The notes under the pieces: generated by a model
Told to the model about the DNA's origin: nothing
Seen by the model: the letters and a program-made list of their open reading frames with translations, nothing else
Database searches by the model: none
Shown: positions 5,522 through 40,685 of the stretch, one piece after another
Position numbering within the stretch: the first letter of the stretch is position 1
Layout: each line of letters opens with the position of its first letter
Virus record (IMG/VR): IMGVR_UViG_3300044715_000224
Location: 1 to 43,468 of that record
DNA from: a virus
DNA length: 43,468 nucleotides
Strand: one strand, 5' to 3'
Program-made: the position numbers and the translations under genes

Positions 5522-5525
5522 CCTG

Positions 5526-5544
5526 CAATATTTTTAAAATATTG
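5526..5544. repeat. A/T inverted repeat after the LamG gene
   Basis: CAATATTTT-T-AAAATATTG is a perfect 9-base inverted repeat four bases after the stop of the LamG gene. It could fold as a weak hairpin at the 3' end of that transcript, but it has almost no G/C and no T-run after it, so it is not a standard intrinsic terminator. Confidence 0.4.
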
Positions 5545-5564
5545 TCACAGATTAGGACAGAAGA

Positions 5565-5593
5565 TGGACTTTTGTTGAGAATAATGGTAAACT
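5565..5593 (+). promoter_or_regulatory. Promoter for the head operon
   Basis: TGGACT at 5565-5570, a 17-base spacer, and TAAACT at 5588-5593 with TGG in front (extended -10). The ATG at 5603 is nine bases after the -10, so the predicted leader is only about 2-3 bases. No ribosome site is seen. It would drive the small gene, portal and following head genes. Confidence 0.5.
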
Positions 5594-5602
5594 GGTTAAC
5601 AT

Positions 5603-5941
5603 ATGGAAATCTTAAATCAAAAAAGTCAAGTTGTTGAAGAGACACGCCTAGGCATATACGTATGGGAAATGCCAGATGGTCGATGGATCGGCGATGATGA
5701 TGGAAATTTCCTTTCTATAACATCAACCAAAGGCAACAGATCTAAAATTGCCGCACTCGCAGATTCTGTTAGACATTATGGAATTAGCGAAGGCCAGCCT
5801 AAATTTCTTTCAGGCAGAAGAAAAATTGATGATGAAGAATTTGAGCATCAAAACGAAAGACTTAAATGGGGCCTTACTCCAGATCCATTAGATATTGGAG
5901 AATATAAAGATTCAATTTTAAGAGGGGGATCTGTAAGATGA
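5603..5941 (+). CDS. Conserved-looking small protein upstream of portal, function unknown
   Basis: A 112-residue hydrophilic protein, not recognised. It starts with a variable segment, then YVWEMPDGRWIGDDDGNFLSI, a tryptophan-rich beta-like stretch, followed by helical KIAALADSVRHYG and a basic/acidic C-terminus with LKWGLTPDPLDIGEY. There is no signal peptide, membrane segment or cysteine motif. Its stop overlaps the portal start (ATGA), so it is coupled to portal synthesis and is likely a head or packaging accessory protein. In many phages this slot before portal holds terminase; this protein is far too short and has no ATPase motifs. A real gene by coupling, length and neighbour spacing. 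Confidence 0.6.
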   Translation: MEILNQKSQVVEETRLGIYVWEMPDGRWIGDDDGNFLSITSTKGNRSKIAALADSVRHYGISEGQPKFLSGRRKIDDEEFEHQNERLKWGLTPDPLDIGEYKDSILRGGSVR

Positions 5942-7521: not shown

Positions 7522-7538
7522 CCCTAATCAACTGCTAT

Positions 7539-7567
7539 TTGCTTTATAGTAGATAAACCATTAAAAT
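7539..7567 (+). promoter_or_regulatory. Promoter candidate for protease/scaffold/capsid, leaderless geometry
   Basis: TTGCTT at 7539-7544, a 17-base spacer and TAAAAT at 7562-7567. The -10 ends seven bases before the ATG at 7575 and no Shine-Dalgarno site lies between, so the mRNA may start at or beside the ATG. A second possible -10, TATAGT at 7545-7550, has no matching -35. Confidence 0.42.
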
Positions 7568-7574
7568 TAAGCAT

Positions 7575-8934: not shown

Positions 8935-9984
8935 ATGAGTAATGAAACATTAGAAAAAGCAATCGCAGCAGGCACAACAGCCTCAACTGGTTTTGCATCA
9001 ACAACTGGAGGAGCAGGAGTACACACAGCGTCTGAAAACGGCAACGGTGGTCTTCTTAATCCAGAACAATCAGCTCGCTTCCTAGACTATATGTTCGATT
9101 CAACCGTAATTGGAAAAGTCGCACGTACAGTTCGAATGAAGTCAGACACAACAGAAATTGATCGTATGTCAGTAGGAGAAAAGCTTGTTAAGCTTGCATC
9201 CGAAGGAGATAATACAGGTGTTAACTCAGCTGTAACTTTCTCAAAGATCTCTTTAACAACAAAGAAGCTACGCATGGACTGGGAGCTTTCAACAGAATCA
9301 CTAGAAGATAACATCGAGGGTGCAGATCTAGAAGATCACATTGCACGTTTGATGGCGACACAAGCAGGAAATGACATCGAAGATGTTATTCTTAACGGTG
9401 ACGAATCTCTAACAACCGATGCTCTTTACAAATCATTTAATGGTGTTGTAAAGAAAGCTAAGACCTCTGGTCGTGTAGTAGATGCAGCGGGTGCAGTAAT
9501 TTCTCGTGCTGTATTCAACTCAGCGCTTAAGGCTCTTCCACGTAAGTACAAGCAACGTCGTACAGACCTTCGCTTCCTTGCAGGATCAAACTTGATCCAA
9601 GATTACTTATACTCTAACTCACAGAACATCCAGAACGTTACTCCACAAGATATTGCCTCTGGCATTATCCGTGGTGATGTTCCTGTTCTAGGAGGTCCTG
9701 CAGGATATGTAGCTCCATACGCATTTGGTATTCCAATCGTTGAAGTTCCACTTCTTCCAGAGACACAAACTGGTACATACGCAAGCCCATCAGGATCACA
9801 CGGAGATGTCCACTTGACATTCCCTAACAACGTGGTAATTGGTGTAAAGCGTGACGTAACAGTTTACCGCTTCTTCTGGCCACGTAAGGACTCAATTGAG
9901 TACACAATGTATACTCGTGTTGGCGTTCAAATCGAGCAGGCAGACGCTTGGGTAGTTGTAAAGAACGTTAAGATAGCTTCCTAA
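8935..9984 (+). CDS. Major capsid protein, HK97 fold
   Basis: A 349-residue major capsid protein. Residues 1 to about 35 are a flexible small-residue N-arm. Then come LNPEQSARFLDYMFDSTVIGKVARTVRM, MDWELSTESLEDNIEG, and the helical segment HIARLMATQAGNDIEDVILNGDE, all typical of the phage capsid family. The C-terminus has VHLTFPNNVVIGVKRDVTVYRF and VVVKNVKIAS. No separate cleaved delta domain is present, which fits a separate scaffold next door. Codon use stands out: arginine is CGT/CGC/CGA throughout, with no AGA, unlike portal or protease, a sign of very high expression. A strong terminator follows at once. Confidence 0.93.
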   Translation: MSNETLEKAIAAGTTASTGFASTTGGAGVHTASENGNGGLLNPEQSARFLDYMFDSTVIGKVARTVRMKSDTTEIDRMSVGEKLVKLASEGDNTGVNSAVTFSKISLTTKKLRMDWELSTESLEDNIEGADLEDHIARLMATQAGNDIEDVILNGDESLTTDALYKSFNGVVKKAKTSGRVVDAAGAVISRAVFNSALKALPRKYKQRRTDLRFLAGSNLIQDYLYSNSQNIQNVTPQDIASGIIRGDVPVLGGPAGYVAPYAFGIPIVEVPLLPETQTGTYASPSGSHGDVHLTFPNNVVIGVKRDVTVYRFFWPRKDSIEYTMYTRVGVQIEQADAWVVVKNVKIAS

Positions 9985-10000
9985 TTAGGAATTAATCTAA

Positions 10001-10040
10001 GAAAAGCCCCCAATTAATTTTGGGGGCTTTTCATTTTAAT
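10001..10040 (+). terminator. Intrinsic terminator after the capsid gene
   Basis: A 12-13-base stem, GAAAAGCCCCCA at 10001-10012 pairing with TGGGGGCTTTTC at 10021-10032, followed by ATTTT. This is a strong G+C stem with a T-rich tail, 16 bases after the capsid stop codon. Confidence 0.9.
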
Positions 10041-10056
10041 TATACAATGCTATAAT
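10028..10056 (+). promoter_or_regulatory. Promoter for the connector operon
   Basis: TTTTCA at 10028-10033, a 17-base spacer, and TATAAT at 10051-10056 with TGC in front (extended -10). The -35 box overlaps the T-run of the capsid terminator, so transcription stops and restarts at one spot. The transcript would carry a leader of about 21 bases with the ribosome site AAAGGAG. Confidence 0.68.
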
Positions 10057-10083: not shown

Positions 10084-10479
10084 ATGTCTTTTGACACATT
10101 AAAGGTCGGAGAGCTAAAAGCAATTGCAGAAGATTTCGCAGTTGAAACAGAAGGACTTAAGAATAAGCAAGACATAATTGCAGCACTATCAGAAGAGGGT
10201 GTTACATACGAAGTGTATACTAAGACACTAAAGGATGTAGAAGATGCAAAAGAGGAAATTGAAATCCTCCCAGTATTTGATCCAAAGGCAGAGCGTACAG
10301 AAGATACTGTACTAGTTAGAATGACAAGGGCAAACTTTAGGTATGACATTTTGGGCCACACGTTCACACAGGAACACCCATTTGTAGCAATGCATAAAGA
10401 TTCTGCTCAAGAAATTTTTGATATAGAGGAGGGGTTTCGTTTAGCCACACCAAAAGAAGTACAGGATTATTACGGCTAA
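10084..10479 (+). CDS. Head-associated protein with Rho-N/SAP-like N-terminus
   Basis: A 131-residue protein with AAAGGAG seven bases before the ATG. Residues about 5-38 (LKVGELKAIAEDF ... LKNKQDIIAAL) look like the small three-helix Rho N-terminal/SAP fold, which often binds nucleic acid and also occurs in phage head proteins. The rest (TEDTVLVRMTRANFRYDILGHTF ... FRLATPKEVQDYYG) looks like a beta-rich capsid-surface or connector domain. It lies between capsid and head-tail adaptor, a slot often holding head decoration or connector proteins. The function is inferred from position; the fold call is only by pattern. Confidence 0.6.
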   Translation: MSFDTLKVGELKAIAEDFAVETEGLKNKQDIIAALSEEGVTYEVYTKTLKDVEDAKEEIEILPVFDPKAERTEDTVLVRMTRANFRYDILGHTFTQEHPFVAMHKDSAQEIFDIEEGFRLATPKEVQDYYG

Positions 10480-13195: not shown

Positions 13196-13318
13196 TTTGC
13201 CTTTTGGTTGATTGTAAGATAAAATTATACCAAGAGGAAATGAGCCTAGCCAGCTTGCTTTAAAGTTTTACAGTAAGTCAATATATATATATTTATTTAA
13301 TAATGGAGGTTTTAAAAC

Positions 13319-14035
13319 ATGGCAAATCAAATTGCAGGTAATGCTAAGAATATTCTAGTTGGTGCTTCACCACTATTTATCTCAAACTTAGACGTTACAG
13401 CTACAGGATATGTAGAAAATTTTGCACCTGGAGAGCAGGGCTCAACAGCACCAGCTTTTTCAGCTCCAACAGCTTCAGCTGATGGAAAGTCATACACAGA
13501 TACTTTGAATGAAGTAACTGCTTCAACAACACCAGCATTCTATTACAGAAACGTTGGTTACACAAACAACGGTCTTCAGGTTACATACAACCCATCATAC
13601 GGTTCAGTAACAGTAGATCAGCTTCTTGATACAGCAAAGCTTTTCAAGGAGTCAATGGAAGTTATGATCGCAACAGAAATGGCAGAAGGAACTCTTGAGA
13701 ACATTCTTGCAGTATTCGGCCAGAGCTCAGGTACACTTACAGATGGAGCAACAGTAGACAAGCTTGGTCTTGCTGGTGGAGCTCTTGGTGAGGCACCAAC
13801 AGAGCGTCAGCTAGTTGCAGTAGGACAGGCTCCAACATCTGGAGCAGGAGTAACAAAGGCAGAGCGTGTATACTATGCACGTCGTGTTCTTTCTGTACAA
13901 CAGTCACAGTTCTCTTTGGCTCGTAACGCAGCATCAACATTCCCAGTTACATTCCGTTTGCTTCCAGATGGTTCAAAGGCTGGTCAGGAATATGGTTTCA
14001 TCGTAGACCGTGTTCTAAATAAGACAGGCGCATAA
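13319..14035 (+). CDS. Major tail protein (tail tube)
   Basis: A 238-residue protein with GGAGG nine bases before its ATG. Sequence features fit a tail-tube subunit: small-residue N-terminus (AKNILVGASPLFIS), NVGYTNNGLQVTYNPSYGSVTVDQLLDTAKLFKESMEVMIATEMAEGTLENILAVFG across about 81-140, and a C-terminal RRVLSVQQSQF ... TFPVTFRLLPDGSKAG. A 'V-DQLLD ... ATEMAEGTLENI' helix region with such beta flanks is common in actinophage tube proteins. Nearly all arginines are CGT/CGC (one AGA seen), again marking very high expression. It precedes tail chaperones and the tape measure, and a strong terminator follows it. Confidence 0.88.
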   Translation: MANQIAGNAKNILVGASPLFISNLDVTATGYVENFAPGEQGSTAPAFSAPTASADGKSYTDTLNEVTASTTPAFYYRNVGYTNNGLQVTYNPSYGSVTVDQLLDTAKLFKESMEVMIATEMAEGTLENILAVFGQSSGTLTDGATVDKLGLAGGALGEAPTERQLVAVGQAPTSGAGVTKAERVYYARRVLSVQQSQFSLARNAASTFPVTFRLLPDGSKAGQEYGFIVDRVLNKTGA

Positions 14036-14054
14036 TTAATTCTTATTAATTAAT

Positions 14055-14086
14055 AAAACCCCCCTAAGAAATTAGGGGGGTTTTAA
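14055..14086 (+). terminator. Intrinsic terminator after the major tail protein
   Basis: A 13-base perfect stem, AAAACCCCCCTAA at 14055-14067 and TTAGGGGGGTTTT at 14072-14084, closed by a GAAA tetraloop, with T-rich 3' arm. It lies 20 bases after the tail protein stop codon. Confidence 0.92.
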
Positions 14087-14088
14087 CA

Positions 14089-14117
14089 TTGTATTGGTAA
14101 TTCTGATATGATACAAT
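14089..14117 (+). promoter_or_regulatory. Promoter for tail chaperones and tape measure
   Basis: TTGTAT at 14089-14094, 17-base spacer, TACAAT at 14112-14117 with TGA in front (extended -10). It begins five bases after the terminator stem of the major tail protein. The leader is about 24 bases and holds the strong ribosome site AGGAGG before the TTG start at 14148. Confidence 0.75.
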
Positions 14118-14147: not shown

Positions 14148-14480
14148 TTGGCAACAACAGTATATGATGTAGAAGAGATTCAACTACAAAATGGCGCAAC
14201 CGTAAAGTTAAAGCCTTTAACAATTAAAGAGCTTAGAAAATTTATGGCAGCTATTGCAAAGACGGCAGAAGTAACTACAGAAGATGAGACGCTAACCATC
14301 CTAATCGATGCTTGTGCAGTAGCACTAGAGAAGCAGCTTCCAGATTTGGTAAAAGATAGAGACGCATTCGAGGACACCCTTGACGTTCCTACAATTAATC
14401 GTATCCTTGAAGTTTGCGGTGGAATCAAGATGGACGATCCAAATTTGTTAGCAGCAGCGGTTCTAGCTGGTCAGAACTAG
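14148..14480 (+). CDS. Tail assembly chaperone, short form (gpG-like)
   Basis: A 110-residue protein starting at TTG 14148, chosen because AGGAGG lies seven bases upstream and no ATG is near. It begins MATTVYDVEEIQLQNGATVKLKPLTIKEL, a beta-strand then helix pattern typical of chaperones that coat the tape measure protein during tail assembly, followed by helices through TINRILEVCGG. A slippery heptamer at 14441-14447 near its 3' end allows a fraction of ribosomes to enter the next frame and make the extended form. Without slippage the protein ends at TAG 14478-14480. Position between tail tube and tape measure confirms the role. Confidence 0.85.
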   Translation: MATTVYDVEEIQLQNGATVKLKPLTIKELRKFMAAIAKTAEVTTEDETLTILIDACAVALEKQLPDLVKDRDAFEDTLDVPTINRILEVCGGIKMDDPNLLAAAVLAGQN

Positions 14481-30442: not shown

Positions 30443-30445
30443 GTA

Positions 30446-30473
30446 TTGACAATATGTAGCACTATGCTACAAT
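30446..30473 (+). promoter_or_regulatory. Strong promoter of the replication region
   Basis: A perfect -35 TTGACA at 30446-30451, a 16-base spacer, and TACAAT at 30468-30473 with TGC in front. It is the best sigma-70-type promoter seen in the window. The start point, near 30480, lies just before the 24-base palindrome at 30487. Confidence 0.8.
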
Positions 30474-30486
30474 TTGATTTAGACTA

Positions 30487-30510
30487 TAGGCCATGAATAT
30501 TCATGGCCTA
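30487..30510. repeat. Perfect 24-base palindrome in the leader of the replication operon
   Basis: TAGGCCATGAAT followed by ATTCATGGCCTA, with no mismatch. It lies about seven bases after the predicted transcription start and 18 bases before the ATG at 30529. It could be an operator for a dimeric repressor, or an RNA hairpin with a 10-base stem and ATAT loop that protects the 5' end. It lacks a T-run, so it is not a plain terminator. Confidence 0.8.
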
Positions 30511-30528
30511 TTAACATTAAGGTAAATA

Positions 30529-34225: not shown

Positions 34226-35145
34226 CTGAAATAGGACTTAATATTGTTGGCGCAACAGGCAATGATTTTCTATGCTACTGCCCATTTCATTCTAATAGAC
34301 ATACGTCTAGCTTTAGCGTAAGCCAAACATCTGGTGCATTTATTTGCTTCAACCCTGCTTGCGGAGAGACTGGCACTTTAGTTGATTTAATCAAACGCAC
34401 TATGCATAAAAATGATTTTCAATCTTTAAGATTAATCGCAGCCAAAGAAACAGAAGCGTTAGATAACTTTGATGAAATTATGGAAGATATGCTTGAAGAG
34501 AAACCAGCCTTCGAAGAATTTTCACAAGAAACATTAGATAGACTTCATTCCGATCTTGCTCGTAACGGTAATGCTAGATCTTATTTAGAATCTAGAGGTA
34601 TTAGCGTAGAGTCTATGAAACACTTTGGTCTTGGTTACTCACCAGCAATGAATATGATTGTTACTCCAGTTCATAGTCCAGATGGAATTCCAATTGGAAT
34701 AGTTGGTAGATCTATTGAGGGAAAGACTTTTAAAAATAGCACTAACCTTCCAAAAAGCAAAACTTTATTCAACATTCATAGAGCAAAAAAAATAGGAGAC
34801 CAGGTGATAGTTTGTGAGTCAAACTTTGATGCAATAAGAATTCATCAGGCGGGATTCCCCAATGTCGTGGCAACCCTAGGTGGATTTTTGTCTAATGAGC
34901 AACAATCTTTATTAAATAGACATTTTAATAAGATAATAATTATGACAGATGCAGATGAAGCTGGCAGGGAATTAGGCAAATCTATTTCTAGTAAGCTTAG
35001 AAATAAAGATATTTCTTGGGCCTCTTTTGGATATCGTGAGATATATCCAAATAAGGCTAAGGATGCTGGTGATTTAACTGAAGAAGAAATAAAAATATGC
35101 ATAAAAAAATCCGTATCAGATATTGAATATCGCTCATGGATATGA
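34150..35145 (+). CDS. DnaG-like primase
   Basis: A 331-residue primase starting at ATG 34150 with GGAAGAAGG upstream; the frame opens earlier at 34099 but without a good ribosome site. The zinc-binding domain has C42-x-C44-x2-H47 and C66-x4-C71 (LCYCPFH, CFNPAC). The catalytic TOPRIM domain follows with E223 (VIVCESNFDA) and D267-x-D269 (MTDADEAG), and ends in a short helical tail. The C-terminal helicase-binding domain of bacterial DnaG (about 580-600 residues) is missing, as usual in phages. It makes RNA primers and works with the helicase encoded just upstream. Confidence 0.87.
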   Translation: MAIRGYNSKQIDTKDYAPSHIKSVLAEIGLNIVGATGNDFLCYCPFHSNRHTSSFSVSQTSGAFICFNPACGETGTLVDLIKRTMHKNDFQSLRLIAAKETEALDNFDEIMEDMLEEKPAFEEFSQETLDRLHSDLARNGNARSYLESRGISVESMKHFGLGYSPAMNMIVTPVHSPDGIPIGIVGRSIEGKTFKNSTNLPKSKTLFNIHRAKKIGDQVIVCESNFDAIRIHQAGFPNVVATLGGFLSNEQQSLLNRHFNKIIIMTDADEAGRELGKSISSKLRNKDISWASFGYREIYPNKAKDAGDLTEEEIKICIKKSVSDIEYRSWI

Positions 35146-35151
35146 TATACT
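35123..35151 (+). promoter_or_regulatory. Promoter of the ssDNA-binding protein gene
   Basis: TTGAAT at 35123-35128, a 17-base spacer, and TATACT at 35146-35151 with TGA in front. It overlaps the last bases of the primase gene. The leader of about 42 bases contains GATGG-ATTTACA-CCATC (35161-35177), a small hairpin, and AAGGAG before the ATG. Confidence 0.72.
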
Positions 35152-35199
35152 AAATAAACAGATGGATTTACACCATCAACTATACAATAAGGAGATACA

Positions 35200-35877
35200 A
35201 TGGGTATCGTAAAAGGTCTAAAAGGATTAAATCAAGTTATGGACAAGCCTTCATACAGCGAAGGTGACGGAACAAAAGCACGTTGGGCAAAGCTAGAAGA
35301 TGCGGAAAGCGTAAAAGTTCGCTTCCTGCAAGAACTAGATCCTGACTCACCAATGTACAACGAAAAAAATGGTTTGGGTTTTATTGCCGTAGAGCATACT
35401 AACCCTAAAGACTACAAGCGCAAGGCACTATGTTCAATGGAAGATCAAGGCAAGTGCTACGGTTGCGAACAACACCGTAAAGATTATAAGGCGGGATGGA
35501 AAGGTCGTTCACGACTTTACATGAACGTATTAATTGATGATGGCAAAGAAGAGCCATACGTAGCAATTCTTTCTCAAGGTTCGAGTGGTAAAACAATTAC
35601 GCCAACTCTTATTGAGTACGCTGGCGAAATGGGTTCTATCAGCAATCTAATGTGGCGCATTAAGCGCACAGGAACAAAGACAGATACAAGCTACACAATC
35701 ATTCCTTTGGCTAAAGATGAGGCACCTTTTGATTCCTCAGCACTTGAATTGTACGACTTGGAGACAACAGCAATTCGAGATTTGCCTTATACAGAGCAAG
35801 AAGGATTTTTTAACGGAGAAGGCGGAAGCCATGAAGCTCCTACTGCTTCAGACTCAGACAGCAATTTAGTCTGGTAA
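35200..35877 (+). CDS. Single-stranded DNA-binding protein with zinc site
   Basis: A 225-residue protein of gp32-like design. The N-terminus is helical and basic (IVKGLKGLNQVMDK). The OB-fold-like body runs from about residue 40, with a zinc site C78-x7-C86-x2-C89-x2-H92 (CSMEDQGKCYGCEQH), and strands RLYMNVLIDDGKEEPYV, SNLMWRIKRTGT, TSYTIIPL. The C-terminal tail is acidic and ends in DSDSNLVW, the kind of tip that recruits replication partners. Arginines are CGT/CGC/CGA with no AGA, marking high expression. It has its own promoter and a strong terminator, so it forms a single-gene unit. Confidence 0.8.
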   Translation: MGIVKGLKGLNQVMDKPSYSEGDGTKARWAKLEDAESVKVRFLQELDPDSPMYNEKNGLGFIAVEHTNPKDYKRKALCSMEDQGKCYGCEQHRKDYKAGWKGRSRLYMNVLIDDGKEEPYVAILSQGSSGKTITPTLIEYAGEMGSISNLMWRIKRTGTKTDTSYTIIPLAKDEAPFDSSALELYDLETTAIRDLPYTEQEGFFNGEGGSHEAPTASDSDSNLVW

Positions 35878-35889
35878 CTATTTATAGTC

Positions 35890-35921
35890 AGGGGCAGTCT
35901 ATTGACTGCCCCTGCTTTATT
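35890..35921 (+). terminator. Intrinsic terminator after the ssDNA-binding protein
   Basis: A perfect 10-base stem, AGGGGCAGTC at 35890-35899 and GACTGCCCCT at 35904-35913, with a TATT loop and a T-rich tail (GCTTTATTTA). It sits 12 bases after the stop codon. Confidence 0.9.
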
Positions 35922-35930
35922 TAGTAAAAT
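35902..35930 (+). promoter_or_regulatory. Promoter embedded in terminator, leaderless geometry
   Basis: TTGACT at 35902-35907 lies in the loop and 3' arm of the preceding terminator; a 17-base spacer leads to TAAAAT at 35925-35930, and the ATG follows exactly six bases later at 35937. There is no Shine-Dalgarno site, so the message is predicted to start at or beside the ATG. It would drive the polymerase operon. Confidence 0.65.
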
Positions 35931-35936
35931 AACATT

Positions 35937-36143
35937 ATGCCTACATATGAAATCCCAGATCCGTTTGAGACATTTGTTGCTAATAAATATAAAAACTATA
36001 AGGGTATGTGGTACGACTTCTTTGCAAGAGAATGGAATTTAAAATCTGCATGTTGTGGGAAAGAGCTTTATGCACCAAACAAAAAAACTATGATTAAGAC
36101 AAGACTTTATCATACAAGGAATGAATGCATGGGCGGATATTAA
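35937..36143 (+). CDS. Small cysteine-containing protein before polymerase, function unknown
   Basis: A 68-residue protein. It reads MPTYEIPDPFETFVANKYKN, then a tryptophan-rich part (GMWYDFFAREWNLKSACCG) and RLYHTRNECMGGY. The CC pair, a histidine and a last cysteine (C-C...H...C) could bind one zinc. Its stop overlaps the polymerase start (TAATG). The start is set by the promoter six bases away. No family recognised. Confidence 0.6.
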   Translation: MPTYEIPDPFETFVANKYKNYKGMWYDFFAREWNLKSACCGKELYAPNKKTMIKTRLYHTRNECMGGY

Positions 36144-39618: not shown

Positions 39619-39628
39619 TTGTATAGGC

Positions 39629-39657
39629 TTCACAGCGCCCCATTTAAATGGTATACT
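39629..39657 (+). promoter_or_regulatory. Promoter of recA
   Basis: TTCACA at 39629-39634 (five of six -35 consensus bases), a 17-base spacer, and TATACT at 39652-39657 with TGG in front (extended -10). The leader of about 17-20 bases is purine-rich (AGAGAGAAGAAAG) and gives only a weak ribosome site. Confidence 0.72.
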
Positions 39658-39680
39658 AGTAGAGAGAAGAAAGAATACAA

Positions 39681-40685
39681 ATGACTATTTCCCTAGAAGA
39701 TATAATGGCAAAGCTAGACCCAAAAACACGTGCAAGAGTTCAATCTGCACAAAATGTTCAAGTTCATAAACAATTAACTCCTAGCATAGGATTAAATGTT
39801 GCCTTAAAGGGTGGCTTAGGATATGGAAGACAAATATTAGTTTGGGGCAATAAGTCTGCTGGTAAATCTTCTTTCTGCTTACAGATGATAGCATTAGCAC
39901 AACAAGAAGGCAAAACTTGTGCATGGATTGATGCAGAAGCATCTTATGATCAATCTTGGGCAGAGCAACTGGGAGTAGATTCATCTTCCCTTATTTATTC
40001 TCAAGCTAAAACAGTAAACGATATGGTAGACGTTGGCGTAAAGCTAATGGAAGCTGGCGTAGATGTAATTGTTGTTGACTCCATCTCTGCTTTGCTTCCT
40101 GGCATATATTTTGAAAAAGATGGAAACGAAATGAAAGATTTGCAAGACACAAAGCAAATCGGCGCAGAAGCAAAGGATATGACTCACGCAGTCAAAATGT
40201 TAAACTATGCAAACAAAAACACACTACTTGTTCTTATCTCCCAACAAAGAAATCAGTTTGGGTCAATGCATGCTTCACACATCCCAACAGGAGGAATGGC
40301 AGTTAAATTTTTCTCTAGTACCGTTATCAAGCTCTGGTCTTCAGAAGCTGAAGCTAATGCTATCAAGGCTGGCGTTCAAGTTGGGGACAAAATTATTGAA
40401 CAGCGTGTCGGAAGACCAGTCAATTGGGTTATTGATTACAACAAGCTCGGCCCCCCTAACCTTTCAGGACAATACGATTTTTACTACCAAGGAGAATCTT
40501 TAGGAGTTGATCGTATTGGTGAGACGCTAGATGTTGCAGAAATGTACGGTTTAGTAGAAAAAGGTGGAGCATGGTACACAATTAATAAAGAACGTTTTCA
40601 GGGTAGGGCTAAGGCAGTAGCATACCTTAGAGATAACCCAAAAGTTGCTGGCTCTTTGATTGAGGAAATCAATGCCAAATCTTAA
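39681..40685 (+). CDS. recA: RecA-like recombinase
   Basis: A 334-residue strand-exchange ATPase. The Walker A motif is GNKSAGKS at residues 56-63; AWIDAEASYDQSWAEQLGVD follows as in RecA/UvsX. Walker B is VDVIVVDSISALLP, the glutamine-rich switch is LVLISQQRNQFGSM, and the loop-2 region has HIPTGGMAVKFFSSTVIKLW. The C-terminal about 100 residues (VDYNKLGPPNLSGQYDFYYQ-type end, EKGGAWYTINKERFQGRAKA) match the RecA C-terminal domain. It is shorter than bacterial RecA (about 350) mostly at both ends. Likely used for recombination-dependent replication or repair of phage DNA. Confidence 0.9.
   Translation: MTISLEDIMAKLDPKTRARVQSAQNVQVHKQLTPSIGLNVALKGGLGYGRQILVWGNKSAGKSSFCLQMIALAQQEGKTCAWIDAEASYDQSWAEQLGVDSSSLIYSQAKTVNDMVDVGVKLMEAGVDVIVVDSISALLPGIYFEKDGNEMKDLQDTKQIGAEAKDMTHAVKMLNYANKNTLLVLISQQRNQFGSMHASHIPTGGMAVKFFSSTVIKLWSSEAEANAIKAGVQVGDKIIEQRVGRPVNWVIDYNKLGPPNLSGQYDFYYQGESLGVDRIGETLDVAEMYGLVEKGGAWYTINKERFQGRAKAVAYLRDNPKVAGSLIEEINAKS

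Follow-up and report, generated by a model that had tools for sequence, protein, structure and literature searches.

Terminators fused to putative restart promoters follow the codon-adapted capsid, tail and SSB genes of a freshwater phage

Introduction

Terminators behind capsid genes are already known from phages T7 and LUZ100. In those parts of the LUZ100 transcriptomics report that deal with the capsid gene, the major capsid gene is framed by a local promoter and a strong terminator, an arrangement that is likened there to T7, and an effect on gene dosage is documented for this LUZ100/T7 unit (PMC10134795). The parts of the report on the Cluster O mycobacteriophages (the Corndog group) that bear on the subject give a predicted terminator by the major tail subunit gene together with predicted leaderless promoters, and describe neither a terminator–promoter fusion nor a link with codon usage (PMC4351075). 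Mycobacteria commonly produce leaderless mRNAs (PMC4633059), and RNA polymerase that is retained after termination re-initiates at nearby promoters in vitro (PMC6978380).

Closer to the phage described here are members of the Stanwilliamsviridae (Mildred21, Annadreamy, Jada and Riptide) and Rhodococcus phage Francesca. They share its gene order and carry terminators at the examined capsid, tail and SSB positions, mostly with a promoter next to them, but the hairpin and promoter sequences differ. Directly after the capsid gene, a hairpin and a T-rich run are likewise found in phages of Vibrio, Pseudomonas and Rhizobium whose capsids are related (26–31% identical), although no clear restart promoter is seen in those gaps.

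We analysed a stretch of viral DNA of 43,468 nucleotides (the window). As in T7 and LUZ100, a strong terminator stands immediately behind the capsid gene. T7 and LUZ100 rely on an RNA polymerase of their own, whereas the promoters here are of the σ70 type. The arrangement concerns the capsid gene only in the relevant parts of the LUZ100 report (PMC10134795), whereas here it extends to the tail and SSB genes and includes a restart promoter fused to each terminator. Also unlike T7, the window has no promoter directly in front of the capsid gene, where the gap measures 16 bp. Any dosage effect in the window would be by analogy with the LUZ100/T7 unit. What is new is that codon adaptation, a terminator and a restart promoter are coupled at the capsid, tail and SSB genes alike, and that a junction recurs in which the −35 element lies within the terminator. 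The open-licence literature yielded no prior account of this coupling or of a repeated −35 in a hairpin, an absence that is weak evidence. The codon outliers, terminators and promoters, with their geometry, conservation and spread, can be read from the sequences themselves.

Results and discussion

The window and its relatives

The window is a linear virus record of 43.5 kb with 37% G+C. Its main genes all lie on the plus strand, as do the features discussed below unless stated otherwise. Portal, protease, capsid and tail genes are present, and a replication block comprises genes for helicase, primase, SSB, DNA polymerase and a UvsX-like recombinase. A row of three 2OG-Fe(II) oxygenase genes occupies positions 291–2579. 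Its close relatives are metagenomic contigs, and because these reach 120 kb the window probably represents about 40% of the whole genome. Among named phages, its relatives belong to the Stanwilliamsviridae or infect Rhodococcus. Head–tail–replication synteny and homologous capsid and SSB genes make the window Stanwilliamsviridae-like when compared with annotated records, while nucleotide similarity to such phages is almost nil (one 39-base match). Among the matches listed, the capsids of Streptomyces phages are 53–60% identical to that of the window and the SSBs 36–41%. The relatives infect actinobacteria, and the window belongs to a freshwater phage from a freshwater clade. A search of genome contigs with the capsid gave no relative and a search with the tRNA-Asp pattern gave matches solely in Clostridia-type and WWE3 assemblies; no host was assigned.

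Codon usage

A preliminary description of the window had set the capsid, major tail protein and SSB genes apart by their arginine codons, and had proposed per-gene codon adaptation and a comparison with related phages as checks. Both were carried out. The capsid gene (8935–9984) matches phrog_1623 (4e-88), phrog_10 and Pfam Phage_capsid, and the SSB gene (35200–35877) matches phrog_9721 (4e-47). The gene at 13319–14035 (phrog_2175) is identified as that of the major tail protein by synteny, as it takes the place that the records of Annadreamy, Francesca and Riptide assign to the major tail protein. These three genes do stand apart, occupying ranks 1–3 among 39 genes by two indices. With an index targeted at C-ending Phe, Tyr and Asn codons, ATC versus ATA and CGY versus AGR, the z-scores are 10.5 for the capsid gene, 6.2 for the tail gene and 5.8 for the SSB gene, followed by 4.1 for the UvsX-like gene at 39681. 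A hypothesis-free test that covers every synonymous codon and uses multinomial resampling as its reference gives 16.3, 12.7 and 8.2 for the top three and 4.6 for the next gene, DNA polymerase; the capsid gene is the strongest outlier and the SSB gene the third. The preference for CGN arginine codons is equally clear, with CGN:AGR ratios of 17:0 (capsid), 7:1 (tail) and 9:0 (SSB). In most of the other genes AGA is the main arginine codon. Base composition as the sole cause was rejected: the GC3 of the three genes (0.25–0.35) falls inside the range of the other genes.

Taken together, the tRNA genes of six long relatives read AGA, TTA, ATA and AAA. Most genes use these codons often, but the capsid and tail genes seldom do; the SSB gene still uses AAA. 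This fits a division in which most genes would lean partly on phage tRNAs and the three adapted genes on host tRNAs. That the three genes are adapted to host tRNA pools is suggested by general signatures of such adaptation.

Terminators behind the adapted genes

Under two scoring schemes, just three intrinsic terminators on the plus strand of the window qualify as strong, and each of them follows one of the three outlier genes, in agreement with the preliminary description. The hairpin scores are −14.9 (10001–10032), −14.5 (14054–14085) and −14.3 (35889–35914), and the next on the plus strand is −7.3. In five Markov controls the best hairpin reached −13.2 once and −7.6 or weaker in the rest. 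If codon usage and termination were unrelated, all three outliers would pair with the three terminators with a probability of 1/9139. Each site has a G+C-rich hairpin followed by a T tract, which is short behind the SSB gene (TTTATTT). The capsid terminator has a 13 bp stem with a GCCCCC/GGGGGC core and a T-rich tail, and is terminator-like on the minus strand too. A 14 bp stem with a CCCCCC/GGGGGG core forms the tail terminator, and an 11 bp stem with a 4-nt loop the SSB terminator. Stem pairing is kept in 96.6% of cells for the capsid terminator (six compensatory changes, 51 distinct relatives), 91.1% for the tail terminator (28 compensatory, 35 distinct relatives) and 97.6% for the SSB terminator (12 compensatory, 34 distinct relatives). 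Rfam gave no match.

The stems directly after the stop codons have stabilities of −15 to −23 kcal/mol. Such stable structures would also be expected if the hairpins served mainly as 3′ stabilizers of highly translated mRNAs, with insulation as a by-product and a promoter needed since transcription had ended, and the SSB mRNA would carry a conserved hairpin at its 5′ end as well. A stabilizer needs no T tract, however, and T-rich tails persist in nearly all relatives; the fused and precisely spaced promoters likewise favour stop-and-restart. We consider it unlikely that stabilization is the main function, and the two roles are compatible with each other.

Junctions with the restart promoters

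The promoters were correctly placed at 10028, 14089 and 35902 in the preliminary description, but they do not simply succeed the terminators: they overlap or abut them. At the capsid junction the promoter TTTTCA-17-TATAAT with a TGC extension (10028–10056) has a −35 element that overlaps the terminator stem at its 3′ end (10032). It is present in 51 of 51 distinct relatives, and TGCTATAAT occurs in 50 of 51 distinct gaps. At the tail junction the −35 element of TTGTAT-17-TACAAT with a TGA extension (14089–14117) abuts the stem end at 14085, and the form TTGnnn-17-TA[CT]AAT with a TG extension is found in all 35 distinct gaps. A scanner listed TTAACA-18-TATGAT at this junction; it was set aside for the TTGTAT promoter, which is conserved in all relatives. 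The SSB promoter TTGACT-17-TAAAAT (35902–35930) has its −35 hexamer (35902–35907) inside the hairpin, in the loop and the 3′ arm. The inner stem pairs that share bases with this hexamer are invariant among the relatives, and TTGACT-17-TA(G/A)A(A/C)T is kept in 34 of 34 distinct gaps. All three promoters thus have conserved −35 and −10 hexamers of the σ70 type, with a spacing of 17 bp in every distinct relative (16–18 bp being expected), and they rank among the most conserved parts of the three gaps. Of all 65 terminators between same-strand genes in ten sequences, 55% are followed by a promoter with a score of at least 10, compared with 7% in shuffled sequences.

The first gene past the capsid junction (10084–10479, phrog_9487) is preceded by AAGGAG and has ordinary codons (z = 0.9). 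Past the tail junction lies a gene (14148–14480, phrog_10504) that is syntenic with genes annotated as tail assembly chaperones (Annadreamy 34 and Riptide 54). The SSB junction is followed by a 68-amino-acid gene (35937–36143) that overlaps the polymerase gene and has relatives in 73 sequences. Its ATG lies 6 nt from the −10 element in 33 and 7 nt in one of the 34 distinct gaps, and its start is probably leaderless.

In seven distinct SSB gaps there is a tRNA insertion and the hairpin has no T tract. Those inspected contain a tRNA-Leu gene and a Shine–Dalgarno start in place of the promoter and T tract, so the terminator tail and promoter are lost together. A tRNA-Leu(UAA) gene stands behind the SSB gene at L109:5234-5365 (the SSB gap of G004) and in the SSB gaps of L162, L163 and L174.

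Upstream promoters and proposed mechanism

A candidate promoter of the tail gene, TTGCCT-17-TAAAAT (13197–13225), lies at the start of the 123 bp upstream gap. Its TAAAAT element is present in five of six relatives, which is weaker evidence than for the restart promoters. The same gap (13196–13318) holds a conserved block, GAGCCTAGCCAGCTT. A likely SSB promoter with the extended −10 element TGATATACT (35143–35151) obtains its TG from the TGA stop codon of the primase gene. This element is kept in five of seven compared gaps and is absent from G002 and G003; promoter-like sequences occur at the corresponding position in Jada, Riptide and Annadreamy. The hairpin GATGG-n7-CCATC (35161–35177) in the 5′ leader of the SSB mRNA is kept in all seven compared gaps and may function in autoregulation, which is known for T4 gp32, or in mRNA stability. 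Streptomyces phages have a hairpin of another sequence at this leader position (window gap 35152–35199). Because its 16 bp upstream gap holds no promoter, the capsid gene must, from its sequence context, be co-transcribed with the protease gene at the least; the nearest candidate promoter precedes that gene in the gap 7522–7574. Conserved promoter-like −10 elements without terminators are found in the gaps 5522–5602 (before the gene at 5603), 7522–7574 (protease) and 39619–39680 (UvsX-like gene), and some of these would give near-leaderless starts.

We propose, with a probability of about 0.72, that the three genes form high-output units within a colinear array, each consisting of a codon-optimized gene and a terminator fused to a restart promoter. 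Each unit would be a gene with codons optimized for translation that ends in an intrinsic terminator, and the tail and SSB genes would probably have their own promoters besides (the SSB one is absent from two of the seven gaps compared). Transcription by most host RNA polymerases would end after the gene for the abundant protein, leaving a short, hairpin-capped and presumably stable mRNA. The fused promoter, of moderate strength and σ70 type, would restart transcription for the next low-demand genes, and the output of these genes would be set mainly by this promoter. Production of the abundant proteins may thereby be decoupled from the dosage of downstream genes. We infer the use of host RNA polymerase and strong termination, and the dosage effect would then follow from the established behaviour of intrinsic terminators.

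The junctions could alternatively divide temporal classes or regulated modules, with codon adaptation merely marking the genes at module ends. Terminators are indeed found behind unadapted genes too, and one stands before the metallophosphoesterase gene with the order of promoter and terminator reversed. The capsid and tail junctions, however, lie within the late structural module between genes that are needed simultaneously, and the SSB junction lies within the replication module, so that none of the three is a module boundary. This explanation is very improbable.

Recurrence in related phages

The comparison with related phages, including six of 105–120 kb, again finds adapted genes enriched for downstream terminators. 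Among 72 core families, defined as common to at least four of seven genomes, five have a strong terminator conserved in at least half of their members, and four of these five have codon ranks 1, 2, 4 and 5. At the family level the link between codon rank and terminator is significant (Mann–Whitney p = 1.9e-4). Within single genomes the association is weaker with unchanged direction (p from 0.0001 to 0.03), and it is found in Mildred21 (p = 0.03), Annadreamy (p = 0.03) and Francesca (p = 0.003). In these three phages, whose capsid and SSB proteins are 37–56% identical to those of the window where reported, a terminator is kept behind the homologous capsid, tail and SSB genes, with a promoter-like sequence next in most cases.

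It could be argued that there is no special design: terminators arise anywhere, a promoter is then obligatory, and the codon link is a coincidence in a fragment with few gaps. Few gaps of the window are long enough for a terminator, which makes the effective sample small, and a terminator inside a colinear array logically needs some promoter behind it regardless of design. Against this, the link holds when the gene families of seven genomes are compared and again in the three named phages, which are from other lineages, and other long gaps of the window hold conserved promoters without a terminator. Of the explanations considered, we regard this as the least probable.

The layout with the −35 element in the terminator also recurs. 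A fourth adapted family, coding for 346 amino acids and located outside the window, has a junction with TTGCCC-17-TAGAAT in which the −35 element is in the 3′ arm of the hairpin. At the SSB junctions of Annadreamy (TTGAAA-17-TATAGT) and Jada (TTGATT-17-TATGAT) and at the tail junction of Francesca (TTGACT-17-TAGTAT) it lies within or at the margin of the terminator loop. The hairpin sequences are unrelated; the recurrence was spotted by inspection and the independent cases are few. Because a start codon lies just past the −10 element at these four junctions, leaderless mRNAs, and with them leaderless translation, are suggested here as well. The 346-amino-acid family itself (L117:6335-7378) is conserved and codon-adapted with the terminator–promoter junction next to it, has no Pfam or PHROGs match and is probably an abundant protein.

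This geometry would also suit a hand-off device, in which RNA polymerase, once stopped, remains bound to the DNA and starts again from the fused promoter, so that downstream output would be a fraction of that of the abundant gene. If so, the −35 element inside the hairpin and the fixed 17 bp spacer in divergent phages would reflect a functional constraint. We know of no natural element dedicated to polymerase hand-off and hold the idea to be improbable, and the junctions provide a natural system for testing whether retained RNA polymerase re-initiates. As compact elements of about 45 bp, they could also serve as useful parts.

Returning to the high-output units, they amount to a testable rule for phage sequences, in which host-type codons plus a downstream terminator mark abundant products. 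The rule bears on a widespread freshwater group that is known here only from metagenomes.

Exceptions

The preliminary description had called these the only strong terminators and the layout a general design. The former is correct within the 43 kb fragment, while whole relatives show more cases as well as exceptions; the latter holds as a layout that recurs across relatives, but it is neither exclusive to adapted genes nor universal for them. The DUF932 gene has codon rank 3 in full genomes (Arg 72:0 over five relatives) and is followed by no strong terminator, with a weak long-loop hairpin (−7.7 kcal/mol) ahead of a tRNA-Asp gene. A permissive ViennaRNA terminator search was used solely to check this gene; owing to its end-pairing rule it gave the SSB family a score of only 57%, and it missed the DUF932 hairpin. 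Situated on the minus strand (L118:7060-8067), the strongly codon-adapted DUF932 gene adjoins other adapted minus-strand genes, and its product is probably abundant. Among the core families, codon ranks 6 and 8 are without a terminator; at rank 7, the gene for the fn3-domain protein is followed by one in two genomes out of six. Conversely, several terminators in the core-family survey stand behind unadapted genes. The Mildred21 tail gene has only codon rank 32, yet its terminator and promoter are kept, and this phage carries further terminators. No clear promoter is seen in the SSB gap of Francesca.

A fourth stable hairpin in the window (around 30489–30512, −15.5 kcal/mol) has little T tract and lies between a promoter and the metallophosphoesterase gene. 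In this gap (30443–30528) the order is reversed: the promoter TTGACA-16-TACAAT comes first, then the hairpin and then a Shine–Dalgarno sequence. The inverted repeat TGTAGCACTATGCTACA spans the −10 element of this promoter, and in four relatives the hairpin has a T6 tail. This arrangement resembles a regulated promoter that has an attenuator in its leader, or else a small-RNA unit.
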